Below are positions 49,567-61,553 of a stretch of DNA of 64,000 bases, one piece after another. Where the stretch lies: assembly GCF_029338295.1 (NCBI RefSeq), contig NZ_CP119791.1, forward strand, positions 1,302,001-1,366,000, written 5' to 3'. The notes under the pieces are model-generated. The model was not told the DNA's origin. It saw only the letters and a list, made by a program, of their open reading frames with translations, and ran no database searches. Source of the DNA: Haladaptatus sp. QDMS2 (lineage in GTDB: Archaea; Halobacteriota; Halobacteria; Halobacteriales; Halococcaceae). Position numbers and translations under genes: made by a program. Within the stretch, counting starts at the first letter, position 1, and each line of letters starts with the position of its first letter.

Positions 49567-49641
49567 GCTCCGTTGGTGTAGTCCGGCCAATCATCTTGCC
49601 CTCTCACGGCAAGGACCAGGGTTCGAATCCCTGACGGAGCA
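49567..49641 (+). tRNA. tRNA-Glu (anticodon CTC)
   Basis: The 75-base gene has acceptor arms GCTCCGT and ACGGAGC with discriminator A, an anticodon arm TTGCC-CTCTCAC-GGCAA with anticodon CTC at 49603-49605, and a T arm GGTTCGAATCC closed by CAGGG/CCCTG pairing. No intron and no encoded CCA are present. An AT-rich TTTTTTATACAA near 49485-49497 could be its promoter. It marks the left edge of the accessory region. Confidence 0.93.
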
Positions 49642-52235: not shown

Positions 52236-52397
52236 ATGAGAGCAGACTTCGATATGGAGCGAGGCGGGCCACTTCACGAAGCCGTGAAAGAGTACGCCCG
52301 CGACCACGGGATACGCCACTCACGAGCGTACCCCGAACTCCTCCGCAAAGCACTCGAATCCGAAGGCTACGATGTCAACGACTCAGACAGCGAATAA
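52236..52397 (+). CDS. Small element-encoded protein upstream of TnpB
   Basis: A 53-residue frame from ATG 52236 to TAA 52397 encodes MRADFDMERGGPLHEAVKEY followed by ARDHGIRHSRAYPELLRKAL. It is a compact helical, charged protein, possibly ribbon-helix-helix-like. It overlaps the first tnpB start by 26 bases. Small frames in this position recur in haloarchaeal IS1341-type elements. It may bind element ends or restrain TnpB; that is inference. Confidence 0.65.
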   Translation: MRADFDMERGGPLHEAVKEYARDHGIRHSRAYPELLRKALESEGYDVNDSDSE

Positions 52398-53646
52398 GAT
52401 GCTGGAAGCCACGCTCGCACCGCCCACGCGGTGTAAAGAGCAACGCCTCCAGCAAACGCTGTCTGAATACCGAGACGCACTCAACGACGCCTTCGAGCAA
52501 CACTGTACGACGATGAGCGCCACAAACGACGTGGTGACGCCGTACAACCTGCCGTACCAAGCAAAAGACGCCCTCAAATCCTACGTTCCGAAACTCCACA
52601 AGACGTACAACGCCAAGGAGTTAGACGACGAACACCCGCTCCGCTTCGTCAATCGAGCCGGGAAGTTCGACCGCGACTCCTCGCGTGAATACGAACTCTG
52701 CTGGAACGTTCCGCAACCCGGTCGCGGAACCAACTTCTGGATACCACTCCGACTGAACCCAGACCAGCAAGAATTGTGGGACGACATGCTCGATGACGAG
52801 TCGAGTACCAAAGTGGGCGAACTTCGCTTGCAGAAGCACCGCAAGACGTGGAGCCTCCACGTTACCGTCGAATACGAAATCAAGGACACCTCTGAACTAC
52901 CCACTAATCCAACTCGGGTTGGATTCGATATTGGTGAGTCGATGTTGGTCGCGGGCTGTGCCCTCCAACACGACACTCCCACGAAACCACTGTTACTCAA
53001 CGGGAAAGAAGCCAAGCGAATTCGTAAGGAGATGTTCACGACGCTCAAGCGACTCCAAGAGCGAGACGCCTCTGAGTGGCGTATCGGGGAACGTTTCTCG
53101 TACTACCAAAACCGACTCACGGACATTATCGAGAAAGCGTCTCGTGAGTCTGTGGAGTACGCTCGGCAGTTCGAGAACCCTATCATCGTGATGGAGGATT
53201 TAGCGTACATCCGTGAGTCGCTGGACTACGGGAAGTACATGAATCGACGCCTACACTCGTGGGCCTTCGCTCGCTTGCAGGGACGCATCGAGGACAAGGC
53301 GAAGGACGCCGGGATTCCGGTTCGGTACATTCACCCGCAGTACACCTCAAAGACGTGTCACTCGTGCAAACACATCGGGTATCGGCCTCGACAAGCCGAG
53401 TTCAAGTGCAAGAACTCAGAGTGTCACGTATCGACGTTTCAAGCGGATATTAACGCGAGTGCGAACATCGCACGTCGCGTAGACCCGTGGGGAGAGAGTC
53501 TACCAGTGAAACAGGTAGACGATGACTCGCCACAGGACGGGAGCGGTTGTGACACCGCCACGACTCAGTGTGAGCAGAGCGAGACACCCTCGCAGATGAC
53601 ACTCACAACGTTTCAAGAGTCGAAACCCACTGCCAGCGACGACTAA
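52372..53646 (+). CDS. tnpB: TnpB, RNA-guided nuclease of the IS1341-type element
   Basis: The 424-residue protein has a RuvC-like core with all three acidic positions apparently intact: FDIGESMLVAG near residue 184 (Asp), IVMEDLAYIRESL near residue 268 (Glu) and QADINASANIARR near residue 361 (Asp). The zinc finger CHSCKHIGY...CKNSEC is near residue 329. A Ser/Thr-rich C-terminal tail of about 55 residues follows. Known TnpB proteins use an RNA from the element's right end to cut DNA and favour element retention. ATG 52399 is an alternative start. Confidence 0.9.
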   Translation: MSTTQTANKMLEATLAPPTRCKEQRLQQTLSEYRDALNDAFEQHCTTMSATNDVVTPYNLPYQAKDALKSYVPKLHKTYNAKELDDEHPLRFVNRAGKFDRDSSREYELCWNVPQPGRGTNFWIPLRLNPDQQELWDDMLDDESSTKVGELRLQKHRKTWSLHVTVEYEIKDTSELPTNPTRVGFDIGESMLVAGCALQHDTPTKPLLLNGKEAKRIRKEMFTTLKRLQERDASEWRIGERFSYYQNRLTDIIEKASRESVEYARQFENPIIVMEDLAYIRESLDYGKYMNRRLHSWAFARLQGRIEDKAKDAGIPVRYIHPQYTSKTCHSCKHIGYRPRQAEFKCKNSECHVSTFQADINASANIARRVDPWGESLPVKQVDDDSPQDGSGCDTATTQCEQSETPSQMTLTTFQESKPTASDD

Positions 53647-53716
53647 CTGGCATTCCCACCGTGTGGGAAGCCCCGTCGTTTACGACGGGGAGGATGTCAC
53701 GGAAGAAGGATAGTCA
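53580..53716 (+). ncRNA. Predicted right-end RNA (omega/reRNA) of the tnpB element
   Basis: In IS200/IS605 elements the guide RNA is made from the end of tnpB and the right end. Here the perfect hairpin at 53671-53690 and the element tip at 53700 would form its scaffold, and bases from 53701 on (GGAAGAAGGATAGTC) would be the guide. The 5' end is unknown. This is by analogy only. Confidence 0.4.
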
Positions 53717-53753
53717 CAATGCATTTACTTGGGTGTCACGTTGTGTCAAAGGA

Positions 53754-54377
53754 ATGCGGTTGAGTCTCCCTGAACGCGCACACGAGCTACTCTCGAGTCA
53801 CGACGTTCCGCTGGAGATCGTGACGCTGAGTGAACCGCATGCCTTCCCGGAGAACGAACTCATCGTGACAGGCATCGCGAAACGCGACGGGGAAACCCTG
53901 TTCGTGAAGAACACGAAACCCGACCGAGAATGGGAACTTCCGAGTGGCACTGTCGAAGACGGGGAATCTCTGGAAGAAGCGATGCATCGAGAGTTCCTCG
54001 AAGAGACCGGCTGTCCAGTCGAAGAGTCAGAACCGGTAATGGTGTTGGTGTGGGCGTTCCCCGACAGTCTCCTCACGCAAGTCATCTACCACATCACGTG
54101 TGGGCCTCAAGAAGGAGAAACCGTGGACGAGATAGCGGAAACCCGCTGGATGGACGAAATTCCTGCCGACGTTTCGTTCGGGTCGATCAGCCGAGAAGCC
54201 TTCGAGGACTTGCTGGAGTTAGACAATGAGGATGCACTCTCACGGCTTCGCGACCTGCTAGATGGCCCAATTAAGTCACGGAAATCGTTGGCAGCTGGCG
54301 CCGCAACCGGGGGACTCGCTGTGCTGGCCTTAGCTCACCGGTACCTTCCACGGAAAGAATCCTCGACCGAAGAGTAA
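53754..54377 (+). CDS. Nudix hydrolase with C-terminal membrane segment
   Basis: The 207-residue protein holds a perfect Nudix box, GTVEDGESLEEA then MHREFLEETGC, near residues 65-87, so it should hydrolyse a nucleoside-diphosphate-linked compound with Mg2+. The last 45 residues include a hydrophobic helix (LAAGAATGGLAVLALAHRYLP), unusual for Nudix proteins and suggesting membrane attachment. ATG 53754 is chosen because the frame upstream runs into the IS element, which inserted 53 bp before it. Confidence 0.8.
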   Translation: MRLSLPERAHELLSSHDVPLEIVTLSEPHAFPENELIVTGIAKRDGETLFVKNTKPDREWELPSGTVEDGESLEEAMHREFLEETGCPVEESEPVMVLVWAFPDSLLTQVIYHITCGPQEGETVDEIAETRWMDEIPADVSFGSISREAFEDLLELDNEDALSRLRDLLDGPIKSRKSLAAGAATGGLAVLALAHRYLPRKESSTEE

Positions 54378-54654: not shown

Positions 54655-54900
54655 ATGGTTTCTTATCTGTCACTTGCGGTGGGGATATTTGCGCTGTGGG
54701 TTGGCTGGACATTCTATGCAACCCCCCAAACTGCCTTTCGGAGACGCCACTGGCCATTCCATCCAGAAGGCAATGGACTGACTGAAGAAGGTGAGTACTC
54801 CTACCGAGTTCTCGGGGTGTTCTTTCTCATCACCGGTGTGGGGTCTCGTGCTGTGGGGAGTACTCGTCTGAGTGACCGCACCGCTGGGTTGGGATATTAG
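54655..54900 (+). CDS. Small membrane protein with two hydrophobic segments
   Basis: The 81-residue frame from ATG 54655 begins MVSYLSLAVGIFALWVGW, a membrane helix, followed by TFYATPQTAFRRRHWPFHPEG and a second helix VLGVFFLITGVG. It resembles small haloarchaeal two-helix proteins, but the C-terminal tail overlaps the tnpB remnant, so the true end may have been altered. Function unknown. Confidence 0.45.
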   Translation: MVSYLSLAVGIFALWVGWTFYATPQTAFRRRHWPFHPEGNGLTEEGEYSYRVLGVFFLITGVGSRAVGSTRLSDRTAGLGY

Positions 54901-55450
54901 GGTTTGCAGTCTACCACTTGTTCGCTCGGTGAGAATCCGTGGGACAAGTCATGAAGGTAGACTCCGGGCTGTGCCAACCAGCCGGTACTCCTATCCCCAC
55001 CCACACTGGCCGGAGACTCGGAGTTACGTTGATTGATATTTAGACGGATATTCTCCGCTCCGTTCACGTCAGCGTTGAACGCTGCATCACACCCTTCACA
55101 GACGTACAGGCCACGCTCGACACGCTGGCGGTCGTCCTCTCTACCACAGACGCAACACGTCTTGCTCGTGTCGCGCTCCGACACTTCCACGACTTCGATG
55201 CCCTCGACTTTCGCCTTGTAGGTGAGTATCTTCGTGAAGCGGTCGAACGCCCACCCGTGCCGGTCGAGCATCTCATCCACTTGGCTGTGGTTGACGATTT
55301 TCGCCCGGTGGATTCGGTGGACTTCCAGCATTCTGAACGCCTGTATAAGCACGTATACTCACGTCTCTTGTAACGATTCGGTTTGGGAACGATGGAATAT
55401 CCGACCCTGCCATCGACGGTGGATTGTGGAGGAATTGTCGGATTCATCCT
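54897..55450 (-). pseudogene. tnpB: Truncated tnpB remnant (C-terminal part)
   Basis: The minus strand encodes FDRFTKILTYKAKVEGIEVVEVSERDTSKTCC in part, then CVCGREDDRQ, CEGCDAAFNADVNGAENIR, the zinc finger and final Asp region of TnpB. Upstream, reading breaks into another frame (MNPTIPPQ...), and the catalytic Asp and Glu blocks are missing. The remaining 151-residue frame ends at 54897. It is a decayed IS1341-type copy from a different subfamily than the complete element. Confidence 0.75.
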
Positions 55451-58326: not shown

Positions 58327-58674
58327 ATGCGGCTTGATAAGTTGAATGCAGATGTGCGAGAGTTCTGCGAACGTCGAGATTGGGGGCAGTATCATACGCC
58401 AAAAGACCTTGCGATCGGTTTGACAACGGAATCAAGCGAGCTGTTGGAACTATTCCGATTCCAAGATACTGATGACCAATCAGACCTCCTCGGTGACGCC
58501 GAATCCCGCGAGGACATCGAGGATGAACTGGCCGACATTCTGTTCTTTTTGCTTCGATTTGCAGACCTCTATGACATCTCCCTCGAAGCAGCCCTGGAAC
58601 GAAAACTCGAGAAGAACAGCGACAGGTATCCAGCGAAGGAATATAAGGGAAGCAACCGAAAGGCGGACAATTAG
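58327..58674 (+). CDS. MazG-like nucleotide pyrophosphohydrolase
   Basis: The 115-residue all-alpha NTP pyrophosphatase has the metal-binding pair ESSELLE at residues 35-41 and EDELADI at residues 65-71. The single domain is usual for MazG-like proteins. It would hydrolyse dNTPs or ppGpp-like nucleotides. It ends 5 bp before the large nuclease-helicase gene and should be in one operon with it. Confidence 0.9.
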   Translation: MRLDKLNADVREFCERRDWGQYHTPKDLAIGLTTESSELLELFRFQDTDDQSDLLGDAESREDIEDELADILFFLLRFADLYDISLEAALERKLEKNSDRYPAKEYKGSNRKADN

Positions 58675-58679
58675 CCAGG

Positions 58680-60569
58680 ATGCTCGTCTACGAAAACACC
58701 AAATCCGGCTTCTTAGAAGATAGCCTGACGGATCAGTTGGTCCCGGAGATCAAACGGGGGTACGAATCTAAGGGGCTTGGAATGGGGAGTGAGAGCGAAG
58801 TCCGGTCCTGGGAGAACTCCTTTCAGTACATGCACAAGGTGTTGAGTGGGAGTTCGCTGCCCGACGACGCAGGCGTCGCAATCGAGTTCAAGATCCCGCT
58901 CACATCTCGGCGAATCGATTTTCTGATCTCCGGGTACGATGCAGCCGAGAATGCGAACGTGGCGATCGTCGAGTTAAAGCAGTGGGATGGACCCAGCACA
59001 GAGGCCGTTGAGGACAAGGACGGAATCGTCAGGACATTGCTCGGGGGTGGTATTCGGGAAACGACGCACCCAAGCTACCAGGCGTCGTCGTATGCACAAC
59101 TCCTGAAAGACTTCAACACACGCATTCAGGACAAGCCGATTCACCTCTATCCTGCAGCCTATCTTCACAATTTCGAACCAGCCCATCGAGAAACGCTAGA
59201 GCGCGACGTCTATCGGCGGTATACTGATGAAGCTCCACTGTTTGTTCGCGGCGATGCAAAGAAACTGCGGTCGTTCTTAGAGTCACAAATCGAAGTTGGA
59301 GACAACCTGGAGACGCTCTACGAATTGAACGATGGGAAGCTCCGCCCAGCAAAGTCGCTGCAGGATTCGCTCCTGGCGATGCTCGAAGACCGCGACGAGT
59401 TCACCCTGATCGACTCACAGAAAGTCGTCTTCGAGAAGGCCGTCGAGTTAGCCAAACGCTCCGCTCGTGACGGGCAAAAACGCGTGTTAATCGTCGATGG
59501 CGGACCTGGAACTGGCAAGACAGTCGTCGCGATCAACATTCTGTCCGAATTGATTCAACAGGATCTGGTCGCCCAGTACGTGTCGAAGAACCGTGCGCCC
59601 AGAGAGGTGTACAAGCAGAAGCTACGGGGCGATAAGCTGGTCAAGGAGATCGACCATCTGTTCACGGGCGCGGGAAGTTTCGTGGAGACGGCGTCGAACG
59701 CACTTCCTGCCTTGATCGCTGACGAAGCTCATCGCTTGAACGCAGAGTCCACGTTCTTCGGTCGGGGTGAGAATCAAATCATGGAGATCATCAACGCCGC
59801 GAAGTTCAGCGTGTTCTTCATCGACGAAAGTCAGCGCATTCATATCGACGATATCGGCTCGAAAGCCGAGATTCGAAGGCATGCCCGTGACCTGGGTGCC
59901 GAGATTGAGGAGGTCGAGTTGGATTCACAGTTTCGATGTAACGGCTCGGAAGGCTACATCGCGTGGCTCAATGATGTTCTGGAGATCAGGGCCACGGCGA
60001 ACGCAGACGGGTTCGATCTCGACTACGACCTACAGGTGTTCGATACGCCGCAGGCGCTTCACGACGCAATCGCACGCAAAAACGAGCACACCCGATTATC
60101 GCGAGTCGTCGCTGGGTATTGCTGGGAGTGGGACAAGGAGGGCCGGTCTGACCCCGACGCCTACGATATCAAGATTGGCGAGTACGAACGAAGCTGGAAT
60201 CTCGATACGAGTGAACCATGGGCCATTGCAGAAGGCTCGATCGACGAGGTCGGGTGTATCCACACCTGCCAGGGCCTCGAATTCGATTACGTCGGCGTAA
60301 TCATCGGAGCGGATTTGAAGTATCGTGAAGGTGAGATCGTCGTCGATCACGAAGCCCGCGCGAACACGGACCGTTCACTCTTCGGTATCAAGAAGATGTT
60401 TCGTGAGGAGCCGGAGAAGGCGGCAGCAAGAGCCGAAGAACTGATTAAGAACACGTATCGAACGCTGATGAGTCGTGGAATGAAGGGCTGTTACATCTAT
60501 TGCTGCGACGAACAGCTGCAGGAGTACCTCAAAACCCGTTTGGCGACTGGCAGTGCGGAACCGCGATAA
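58680..60569 (+). CDS. PD-(D/E)xK nuclease fused to DUF2075-type SF1 NTPase/helicase
   Basis: The 629-residue protein has an N-terminal RecB-type nuclease pattern: RRIDFL with Asp80, ELK at 98-100, and QASSY at 134-138 (Q-x3-Y). The DUF2075/Schlafen-like motor follows with Walker A GGPGTGKT at 274-281, Walker B IADEAHR at 346-352, FFIDESQR near 379, QFRCNGSEGYIAWL near 417, and HTCQGLEFDYVGVIIG near 528. It follows MazG by 5 bp. This domain combination and partner suggest phage or plasmid defence. Confidence 0.85.
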   Translation: MLVYENTKSGFLEDSLTDQLVPEIKRGYESKGLGMGSESEVRSWENSFQYMHKVLSGSSLPDDAGVAIEFKIPLTSRRIDFLISGYDAAENANVAIVELKQWDGPSTEAVEDKDGIVRTLLGGGIRETTHPSYQASSYAQLLKDFNTRIQDKPIHLYPAAYLHNFEPAHRETLERDVYRRYTDEAPLFVRGDAKKLRSFLESQIEVGDNLETLYELNDGKLRPAKSLQDSLLAMLEDRDEFTLIDSQKVVFEKAVELAKRSARDGQKRVLIVDGGPGTGKTVVAINILSELIQQDLVAQYVSKNRAPREVYKQKLRGDKLVKEIDHLFTGAGSFVETASNALPALIADEAHRLNAESTFFGRGENQIMEIINAAKFSVFFIDESQRIHIDDIGSKAEIRRHARDLGAEIEEVELDSQFRCNGSEGYIAWLNDVLEIRATANADGFDLDYDLQVFDTPQALHDAIARKNEHTRLSRVVAGYCWEWDKEGRSDPDAYDIKIGEYERSWNLDTSEPWAIAEGSIDEVGCIHTCQGLEFDYVGVIIGADLKYREGEIVVDHEARANTDRSLFGIKKMFREEPEKAAARAEELIKNTYRTLMSRGMKGCYIYCCDEQLQEYLKTRLATGSAEPR

Positions 60570-60903: not shown

Positions 60904-61443
60904 TTATGTACCAGAATCCGAGCGGGACTCGATGATGGTTCGCTCGGTCACAACGACGATACCGTCCGGGGCCGTCTCGTAAACCCGCGGAAAGACGCCT
61001 TGTGTCGCTGTCCCCTTCCTTCGATAGGCGGCCATTCGGGTTCCTGCCACTACGAGTCTCCCCACGAGATTCCCGGGGGCGAGTATCGAGCGAACCTCCG
61101 ATGCGGTTCCGGGCGGGAACGACTCATGGACGAGTCTTCGCGCAGGTGACGGAGAGGTTGGCCGAACCATGACGCTCTGTCCAAGAACATCCTCTCTCCG
61201 TTCACCAATCAGCGTATGGACGTCGAAATAGACCACATCACGTTCAGCCTCCTCTAACCCCCGTTCGTCGGTCGTCGCCGGAGCCACATATGCTCCGACC
61301 GTCCATTCGTCCGTAGAGATTGCAACGACATCGCCCGACGACAGCTCCATCTCTCGCATCGTGTCGGGGTGGAGCCGACATTGTCCCAATGATGCGTCTC
61401 TTGGGTCGGGACCGGCAATACGGAGTCGTACTCCGTTGTCCAT
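60904..61443 (-). CDS. Stand-alone Cdc48/VAT N-domain-like protein
   Basis: The 179-residue frame from ATG 61443 begins MDNGVRLRIAGPDPRDASLG and shows LHPDTMREMELSSGDVVAI, the double-psi-barrel pattern of Cdc48/VAT N-domains, followed by a second part ending APDGIVVVTERTIIE like the N-C subdomain. It stops where an AAA ATPase domain would begin and no ATPase follows. It may be an adaptor, a decoy for Cdc48 partners, or a remnant. Confidence 0.6.
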   Translation of the reverse strand: MDNGVRLRIAGPDPRDASLGQCRLHPDTMREMELSSGDVVAISTDEWTVGAYVAPATTDERGLEEAERDVVYFDVHTLIGERREDVLGQSVMVRPTSPSPARRLVHESFPPGTASEVRSILAPGNLVGRLVVAGTRMAAYRRKGTATQGVFPRVYETAPDGIVVVTERTIIESRSDSGT

Positions 61444-61553
61444 ATTCAATCGGTAGTACTTGGAACCCTGTACCAATAGACCTTCTTCCTCCACCAGCTA
61501 TAGATGTACAATCGTTCCGTTGTATGTGACACGGAGGATAAGGGAAACCCAAT

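Follow-up and report, generated by a model that had tools for sequence, protein, structure and literature searches.

A mobile MazG and nuclease-helicase gene pair in Haladaptatus sp. QDMS2 as a candidate defence cassette

What is the function of a small MazG-like pyrophosphatase that is encoded directly in front of a nuclease-helicase in a haloarchaeal genome? Such a pair lies in the window, the whole stretch of 64,000 nucleotides that was analysed. It had been read in an earlier note as an operon coupling nucleotide depletion to DNA cutting against phages. Both open reading frames were found where that note had placed them, a single-domain MazG and, 5 bp after its stop codon, the ATG of the nuclease-helicase at 58680. 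The features of the pair are as follows.

58327..58674, plus strand: MazG-like all-alpha (d)NTP pyrophosphatase of the DCTPP1/RS21-C6 type, 115 aa (PF12643/PF03819; PDB relatives; conservation over 75 MazG sequences)
58680..60569, plus strand: nuclease-helicase, second gene of the pair, 629 aa (Pfam; matched along the full length in archaea and in many phyla of bacteria)
58680..59369, plus strand: predicted PD-(D/E)xK-type nuclease domain, N-terminal, residues 1-230 (E69, D80, E98, K100, Q134 and Y138 invariant; element order in the AlphaFold2 model; weak PDB matches)
59478..60509, plus strand: SF1 Schlafen-group-3 (DUF2075) motor, residues 267-610 (about 265-610) (PF09848; Walker A G274-K280, Walker B D348-E349; Foldseek)

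The MazG protein matched the Pfam families PF12643 (4.9e-9) and PF03819 (4.7e-8), both above the cut-off. The metal-binding motif ExxE...ExxD was present as E35, E38, E67 and D70, and among 75 MazG sequences these catalytic residues were 96-100% conserved and K93 and N97 were 93-99% conserved. In a phmmer search of the PDB, an archaeal pyrophosphatase (4qgp) and mouse RS21-C6/dCTP pyrophosphatase 1 scored best, with 2e-19 and 8e-14, respectively, and the alignment with RS21-C6 ran without gaps over residues 11-110. The DCTPP1 pocket residues W47, E63, E66, W73, E95, D98 and Y102, as named in PMC4491611, correspond to W19, E35, E38, F45, E67, D70 and F74 of MazG, with a constant offset of 28. 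MazG shares the catalytic acids with DCTPP1/RS21-C6, keeps W47 and has aromatic residues at the positions of W73 and Y102, its pocket aromatics being W19, F45 and F74. It differs in that the base-contacting H38 is not kept (V10 in MazG), in that W73 is F45, and in being an archaeal protein linked to a nuclease-helicase. Because of the changes from H38 to V10 and from W73 to F45, the substrate preference of MazG may differ from that of DCTPP1. No PADLOC 2.0.0 model matched MazG at 0.01.

The second protein carries a Schlafen-like motor, as had been proposed. Residues 267-610 matched PF09848 (Schlafen group 3 helicase) over 354 of 354 profile positions with an E-value of 4.4e-109, and this was the only PF09848 protein above the cut-off in the whole genome. 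No Pfam family matched the N-terminal 230 residues. In an alignment of 71 diverse homologues with 34-80% identity to the window protein, E69, R78, D80, E98, L99, K100, H130, P131, Q134 and Y138 of the N-terminal domain were invariant, and so were G274 and G277-T278-G279-K280 of Walker A and D348-E349 of Walker B. The RecB-type pattern described earlier (D80, E98-L99-K100 and Q134-A-S-S-Y138) was correctly positioned, and D80, E98, L99, K100, Q134 and Y138 of this pattern belong to the invariant set.

AlphaFold2 modelled the full nuclease-helicase on the same alignment with a pLDDT of 89 and a pTM of 0.89, and the N-terminal domain alone with a pLDDT of 94. The domain model consisted of a helix (38-55), three strands (65-71, 78-86 and 92-100), a hairpin (116-129), a helix (131-145) and a strand (155-162), giving the order alpha-beta-beta-beta-(beta-beta)-alpha-beta. 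D80 was located on strand 2, E98 and K100 at the end of strand 3, and Q134 and Y138 in the next helix. PD-(D/E)xK nucleases that have a RecB-like QxxxY would show this placement of D80, the ExK motif and QxxxY, and the nuclease fold looked for in residues 1-200 was thus found in the models as a PD-(D/E)xK topology. The isolated domain gave no significant match to PDB structures, the best being Card1 (E=0.038), with none below 0.03. The weak top matches were mostly PD-(D/E)xK proteins (Card1, Exo5, EcoO109I, Can2, ACE1 and EndoMS), with acetyltransferases mixed in. From the invariant motif and the topology, and not from a significant structural match, we infer a PD-(D/E)xK-type nuclease domain. 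A Foldseek search with the full model retrieved SLFN11 (7.7e-11), Dda-like helicases, RecD2 and the Dna2 nuclease-helicase, and a phmmer search of the sequence against the PDB returned no match.

Of 292 genomes sampled from the haloarchaeal class, 14 encoded the nuclease-helicase, and neither of the two other sampled genomes of the genus was among them. MazG adjoined it in 12 of these 14 loci, before the helicase gene in 9 and after it in 3. A scan of GTDB genomes yielded 80 further loci, mostly bacterial, nearly all of which matched residues 1 to about 620. They came from Methanobrevibacter, Bacillota, Bacteroidota, Pseudomonadota, Spirochaetes, Verrucomicrobia, Planctomycetes, Elusimicrobia, Saccharibacteria and others. 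In 49 of the 71 complete loci (those with at least 600 bp on both sides of the helicase), MazG was encoded no more than 130 bp from the helicase and on its strand; over all 80 loci it was upstream in 38 and downstream in 15. As genomes hold a few MazG genes per several Mb, such adjacency is estimated to arise by chance in the order of 1 in 10,000 cases, and the pairing is far above chance. These results support the operon and the nuclease-helicase architecture claimed for the window.

The distances among MazG proteins and among helicases were correlated with r=0.28, a value reached in 0 of 2000 permutations; a correlation of this modest size would result if the two genes had come together on several occasions. 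About 30% of the complete GTDB loci had no adjoining MazG, so the helicase can act without MazG or with another partner. A PRA-PH-like protein, whose fold is related to that of MazG, was adjoining or nearby in a few such loci (L111, L098 and L116). PRA-PH-like small proteins were also seen within the same gene runs (L111:11964-12302, L043, L104, L098 and L116); at L111 the gene lies directly 3' of the helicase and MazG is missing. No MazG-helicase gene fusion was found among the homologues examined, and E. coli genomes gave no match to a Pseudomonas homologue at the DNA level. Viral contigs gave at least three remote matches to the nuclease-helicase among the matches listed.

The pair is not only widespread but also mobile. 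Among the 14 haloarchaeal loci, flanking genes were common essentially only to sister species. Plasmid-borne homologues were found in Halalkalicoccus, Methanosphaera, Halomonas, Hymenobacter, Marivirga and Priestia, and one Microcystis phage record contained a homologue together with MazG. Homologues were thus not concentrated in conserved housekeeping loci, the finding that would have spoken against the earlier note, but were sparse and occurred in shifting accessory or plasmid contexts. A housekeeping gene pair was ruled out, as the pair is sparse and has the same context only between sister species.

Several homologues were interrupted. One haloarchaeal copy (L024:9780-10020, genome G003) was broken in the nuclease domain, just before ELK, by a short insertion that has inverted repeats at its ends and looks like a small non-autonomous transposable element. 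Among bacterial and plasmid copies, stops or frameshifts were seen in L101, L078 and L090 and split reading frames in L036 and L037. Such stops, frameshifts and split frames would be expected where selection on a gene is switched on and off.

In the window itself, a drop in G+C from about 63% to 53-57% begins near 52 kb, and G+C remains low until about 64 kb; beyond the window it recovers partially, with a second dip at 68-72 kb. The tRNA-anchored border described in the earlier note was not confirmed. The nearest tRNA gene, for Glu at 49567-49641, is 8.7 kb from the pair, an ABC-transporter pair at core G+C lies between them, and no repeat of the 3' end of this tRNA gene (att) was found within the 144 kb examined. 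In an empty-site comparison with a genome of the same genus, the cysteine-synthase gene alone was common to both and the region was not. The toxin-like genes that had been placed beside the pair were borne out in part: no recognised toxin gene directly flanks it, and a SoFic-like Fic gene occurs about 8 kb downstream, beyond the window (full-length, 6.6e-96, L145:4663-5838). The same accessory region also encodes, shortly after the end of the window, a HerA/TrwB-like ATPase of 1189 aa (L145:783-4352).

Two TnpB-like genes were located 3-6 kb upstream of the pair. A full-length TnpB-like protein (52372-53646, plus strand) opens the low-G+C stretch, and a TnpB C-terminal fragment with a Cas12f1-like TNB domain (54897-55352, minus strand) also stands at its start. 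A Nudix-domain protein of 238 aa (53661-54377, plus strand), 4 kb upstream of the pair, matched PADLOC PDC-S07 weakly (8e-12); it may be unrelated to the pair, because its closest NCBIfam model is an NAD(+) diphosphatase. A 196-aa protein (60904-61494, minus strand) weakly matched the N-terminal domain of CDC48 alone, without the AAA ATPase part.

Besides MazG, the commonest neighbours over 102 loci were a PLD-SF2-DUF3427 protein and a Nudix hydrolase. The former is SauUSI-like (PADLOC type IV mREase, mREase_IV; one member E=7.6e-212) and was near the pair in 14 of 102 loci; the latter is MutT/NudG-like (PADLOC PDC-S07) and was near it in 13. At L046, L063, L104 and L121, SauUSI-like or Nudix genes formed single gene runs with MazG and the helicase. 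A total of 15 DUF3427 genes were found in 49 of these genomes, and five of them (L046, L063, L067, L088 and L111) lay within 10 kb of the helicase, compared with about 0.1 expected by length. MutT and NudG-type models scored about equally on the neighbouring Nudix genes, both below the cut-off. HNH nucleases and SoFic were the other recurrent neighbours. No SauUSI-like gene was seen beside the window's own pair, and type I methylase genes (PF02384) showed no evident clustering with the helicase.

The Pfam tally of immediate neighbours was rich in DEAD/ResIII helicases, HTH_3, DUF3427, HNH, Nudix and NERD, whereas regions half a contig away held housekeeping families, except for one CRISPR locus. 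A matched tally with PADLOC compared 20 island regions with 20 regions half a contig away, one of these controls being a CRISPR locus, and counted the best 25 of many redundant models; it separated the two sets less well than the Pfam tallies. A plasmid of Hymenobacter canadensis (L035:8001-11987) carried two tandem DUF2075 nuclease-helicases, 48% and 32% identical to that of the window, standing behind restriction-endonuclease, methyltransferase and DUF4747 genes.

In about 15 bacterial homologues, 140-200 extra residues were found at the C-terminus, and the two examined matched Peptidase_S24. The serine of GxSM and the lysine were kept in 15 of 15, and nearly all had an A-G or C-G pair at the cleavage position. 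The loci with such fusions include L066, L065, L060, L069, L072, L083, L080, L100 and L118, and the haloarchaeal nuclease-helicases are without this module. The presence of this LexA/UmuD-like S24 module suggests that such members are controlled by a damage trigger.

Defence is the most likely role of the pair, given its sparse and mobile distribution, the linkage of the two genes across domains of life and the neighbours of restriction type. The candidate defence role put forward in the earlier note is supported by the rarity of homologues, their shifting accessory or plasmid contexts, the pairing with MazG across phyla and the nearby restriction enzymes. Judged from this context, the nuclease-helicase and the dNTP pyrophosphatase probably act in defence. 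We propose that this two-gene mobile cassette restricts foreign DNA and that MazG keeps modified dCTP out of host DNA, an explanation that as a whole falls slightly short of an even chance. The nuclease-helicase would be an ATP-driven nuclease that loads on incoming or replicating foreign DNA and then cuts it. MazG would hydrolyse dCTP and, as proposed here, 5-modified dCTP arising from salvage or from degraded phage DNA, and would exclude the modified nucleotide from host DNA. The host would be spared in this way by a nuclease that prefers modified or otherwise marked DNA.

This task of MazG is the more tentative part of the explanation, and we regard it as possible but somewhat doubtful. We take Orf135 to be the Nudix enzyme NudG. 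Orf135 of E. coli was reported to be a specific 5-methyl-dCTP hydrolase (PMC10742078), and 5-methyl-dCTP was a better substrate of DCTPP1 than dCTP, which the authors credited to contacts with W47 and W73 (PMC4491611). We favour the removal of modified dCTP over dNTP depletion because DCTPP1-type MazG and Nudix proteins, families with members acting on 5-modified dCTP, both recur beside ATP-dependent nuclease-helicases. One such nuclease-helicase, SauUSI, depends on 5mC/5hmC (PMC3874153), which adds support.

The earlier reading of depletion coupled to cutting holds that, upon infection, MazG hydrolyses dNTPs, dCTP above all, and starves phage replication, and that the nuclease-helicase cuts the stalled phage DNA, possibly in an abortive response. 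We consider it unlikely. A pyrophosphatase with intact catalytic residues is indeed tied to a nuclease-helicase, but the studied relatives of single-domain DCTPP1-type MazG are house-cleaning enzymes (PMC10742078, PMC4491611), and in one study dCTP levels were unaltered by knockdown or overexpression of DCTPP1 (PMC4491611). The neighbours are of the restriction type and not of the killing type, and no regulator of MazG activity was seen. In favour of depletion, the S24 fusions point to a possible trigger by DNA damage in some members. MazG also appears, as one of several nucleotide-modifying enzymes, among the predicted, unvalidated defence domains of DefensePredictor, the accessible text of which names no partner (PMC13092281). 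The clearing of modified dNTPs fits the DCTPP1-type MazG, the modification-dependent restriction neighbours and the Nudix genes at least as well as depletion does.

It is still less likely that the two proteins form a DNA repair or genome-stability pair without a role in immunity, in which damaged or stalled DNA would be handled by the nuclease-helicase and the nucleotide pool would be kept clean by MazG. Repair does employ house-cleaning pyrophosphatases and Dna2-like nuclease-helicases, and the S24 modules connect some members to damage signalling. However, a repair function is at odds with a presence in so few haloarchaea and an absence from the other two sampled genomes of the genus, with contexts common to sister species alone, and with plasmid-borne copies and restriction-type neighbours. 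Least likely of all, and improbable, is that MazG serves as a regulatory or sensor subunit bound to the helicase, which it would gate by (d)NTP sensing with catalysis secondary: the tight linkage in either gene order and the PRA-PH-like protein in a few modules without adjoining MazG would suit it, but the conserved catalytic residues argue for activity, no natural fusion was found, and the weak tree correlation does not suggest a tightly co-evolving interface.

If modified dCTP is indeed what MazG removes, this would account for the presence of two unrelated folds of dNTP pyrophosphatase beside ATP-dependent nuclease-helicases. In a wider form, which we consider rather doubtful, a self/non-self mark would be kept by nucleotide-pool hygiene and not by a methyltransferase, with nuclease-helicases that attack modified bases working together with a pyrophosphatase of the MazG/DCTPP1 or MutT/NudG type. 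If true, this logic would unite the MazG-SLFN-g3, SauUSI-Nudix and PDC-S41-Nudix gene pairs. MazG, as a predicted defence domain, gains a defined recurrent partner and a testable job. The LexA/UmuD-like fusions would link some members to DNA-damage signalling, and a compact two-gene system in archaea and bacteria lends itself to testing in standard laboratory hosts.

The nuclease-helicase was compared with known proteins and systems. It shares the motor fold with human Schlafen 11 (group 3), and with Dna2 it shares a PD-(D/E)xK nuclease, here a predicted one, joined to an SF1 motor. TM-scores to both were about 0.3, so that they are remote, and no Schlafen core RNase domain was seen in the window protein. 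In PADLOC 2.0.0, no named system contained MazG and a PF09848 protein, and the helicase matched remote families alone. In our literature search, no paper was found with DUF2075 and MazG together, and the one with MazG and Schlafen was unrelated. Nhi (PDLC02372) and AbiO (PDLC02350) are also nuclease-helicase defence proteins, and motor residues of about 240-420 aligned with them at 7e-11 and 2e-12, respectively. The N-terminal domain did not match, the window system has MazG as a recurrent partner, and Nhi is described as a one-gene system, a nuclease-helicase that depends for its activity on variation in the phage SSB (PMC12904381). Membership of Nhi or AbiO was ruled out, as the match is confined to that stretch and does not cover the whole protein.

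The candidate defence protein PDC-S41 (PDLC05014) belongs to the same PF09848 family, has about 650-710 aa, and matched the window protein at 4.5e-17. It is sometimes beside Nudix (L045 and L075) and was near a window-type pair at 4 loci. Membership was likewise ruled out, with the match of 4.5e-17 broken into three stretches compared with 6e-242 for a member of its own; PDC-S41 is a sister family whose partner, where seen, is Nudix rather than MazG. The SauUSI-type protein (PLD-SF2-DUF3427) with a MutT-like Nudix enzyme offers the other parallel, in that an ATP-dependent nuclease-helicase again adjoins a nucleotide pyrophosphatase; these genes often share a gene run with a window-type pair. 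The proximity of MutT homologues to SauUSI homologues had been noticed earlier (PMC7641849). The SauUSI-type system has a PLD nuclease and an SF2 motor in place of PD-(D/E)xK and SF1, and a Nudix in place of a MazG fold, and the 5mC dependence of SauUSI is known, whereas for the window nuclease-helicase a preference for modified DNA is a proposal. The pair is most likely a variant, so far unnamed, of the nuclease-helicase kind of defence.
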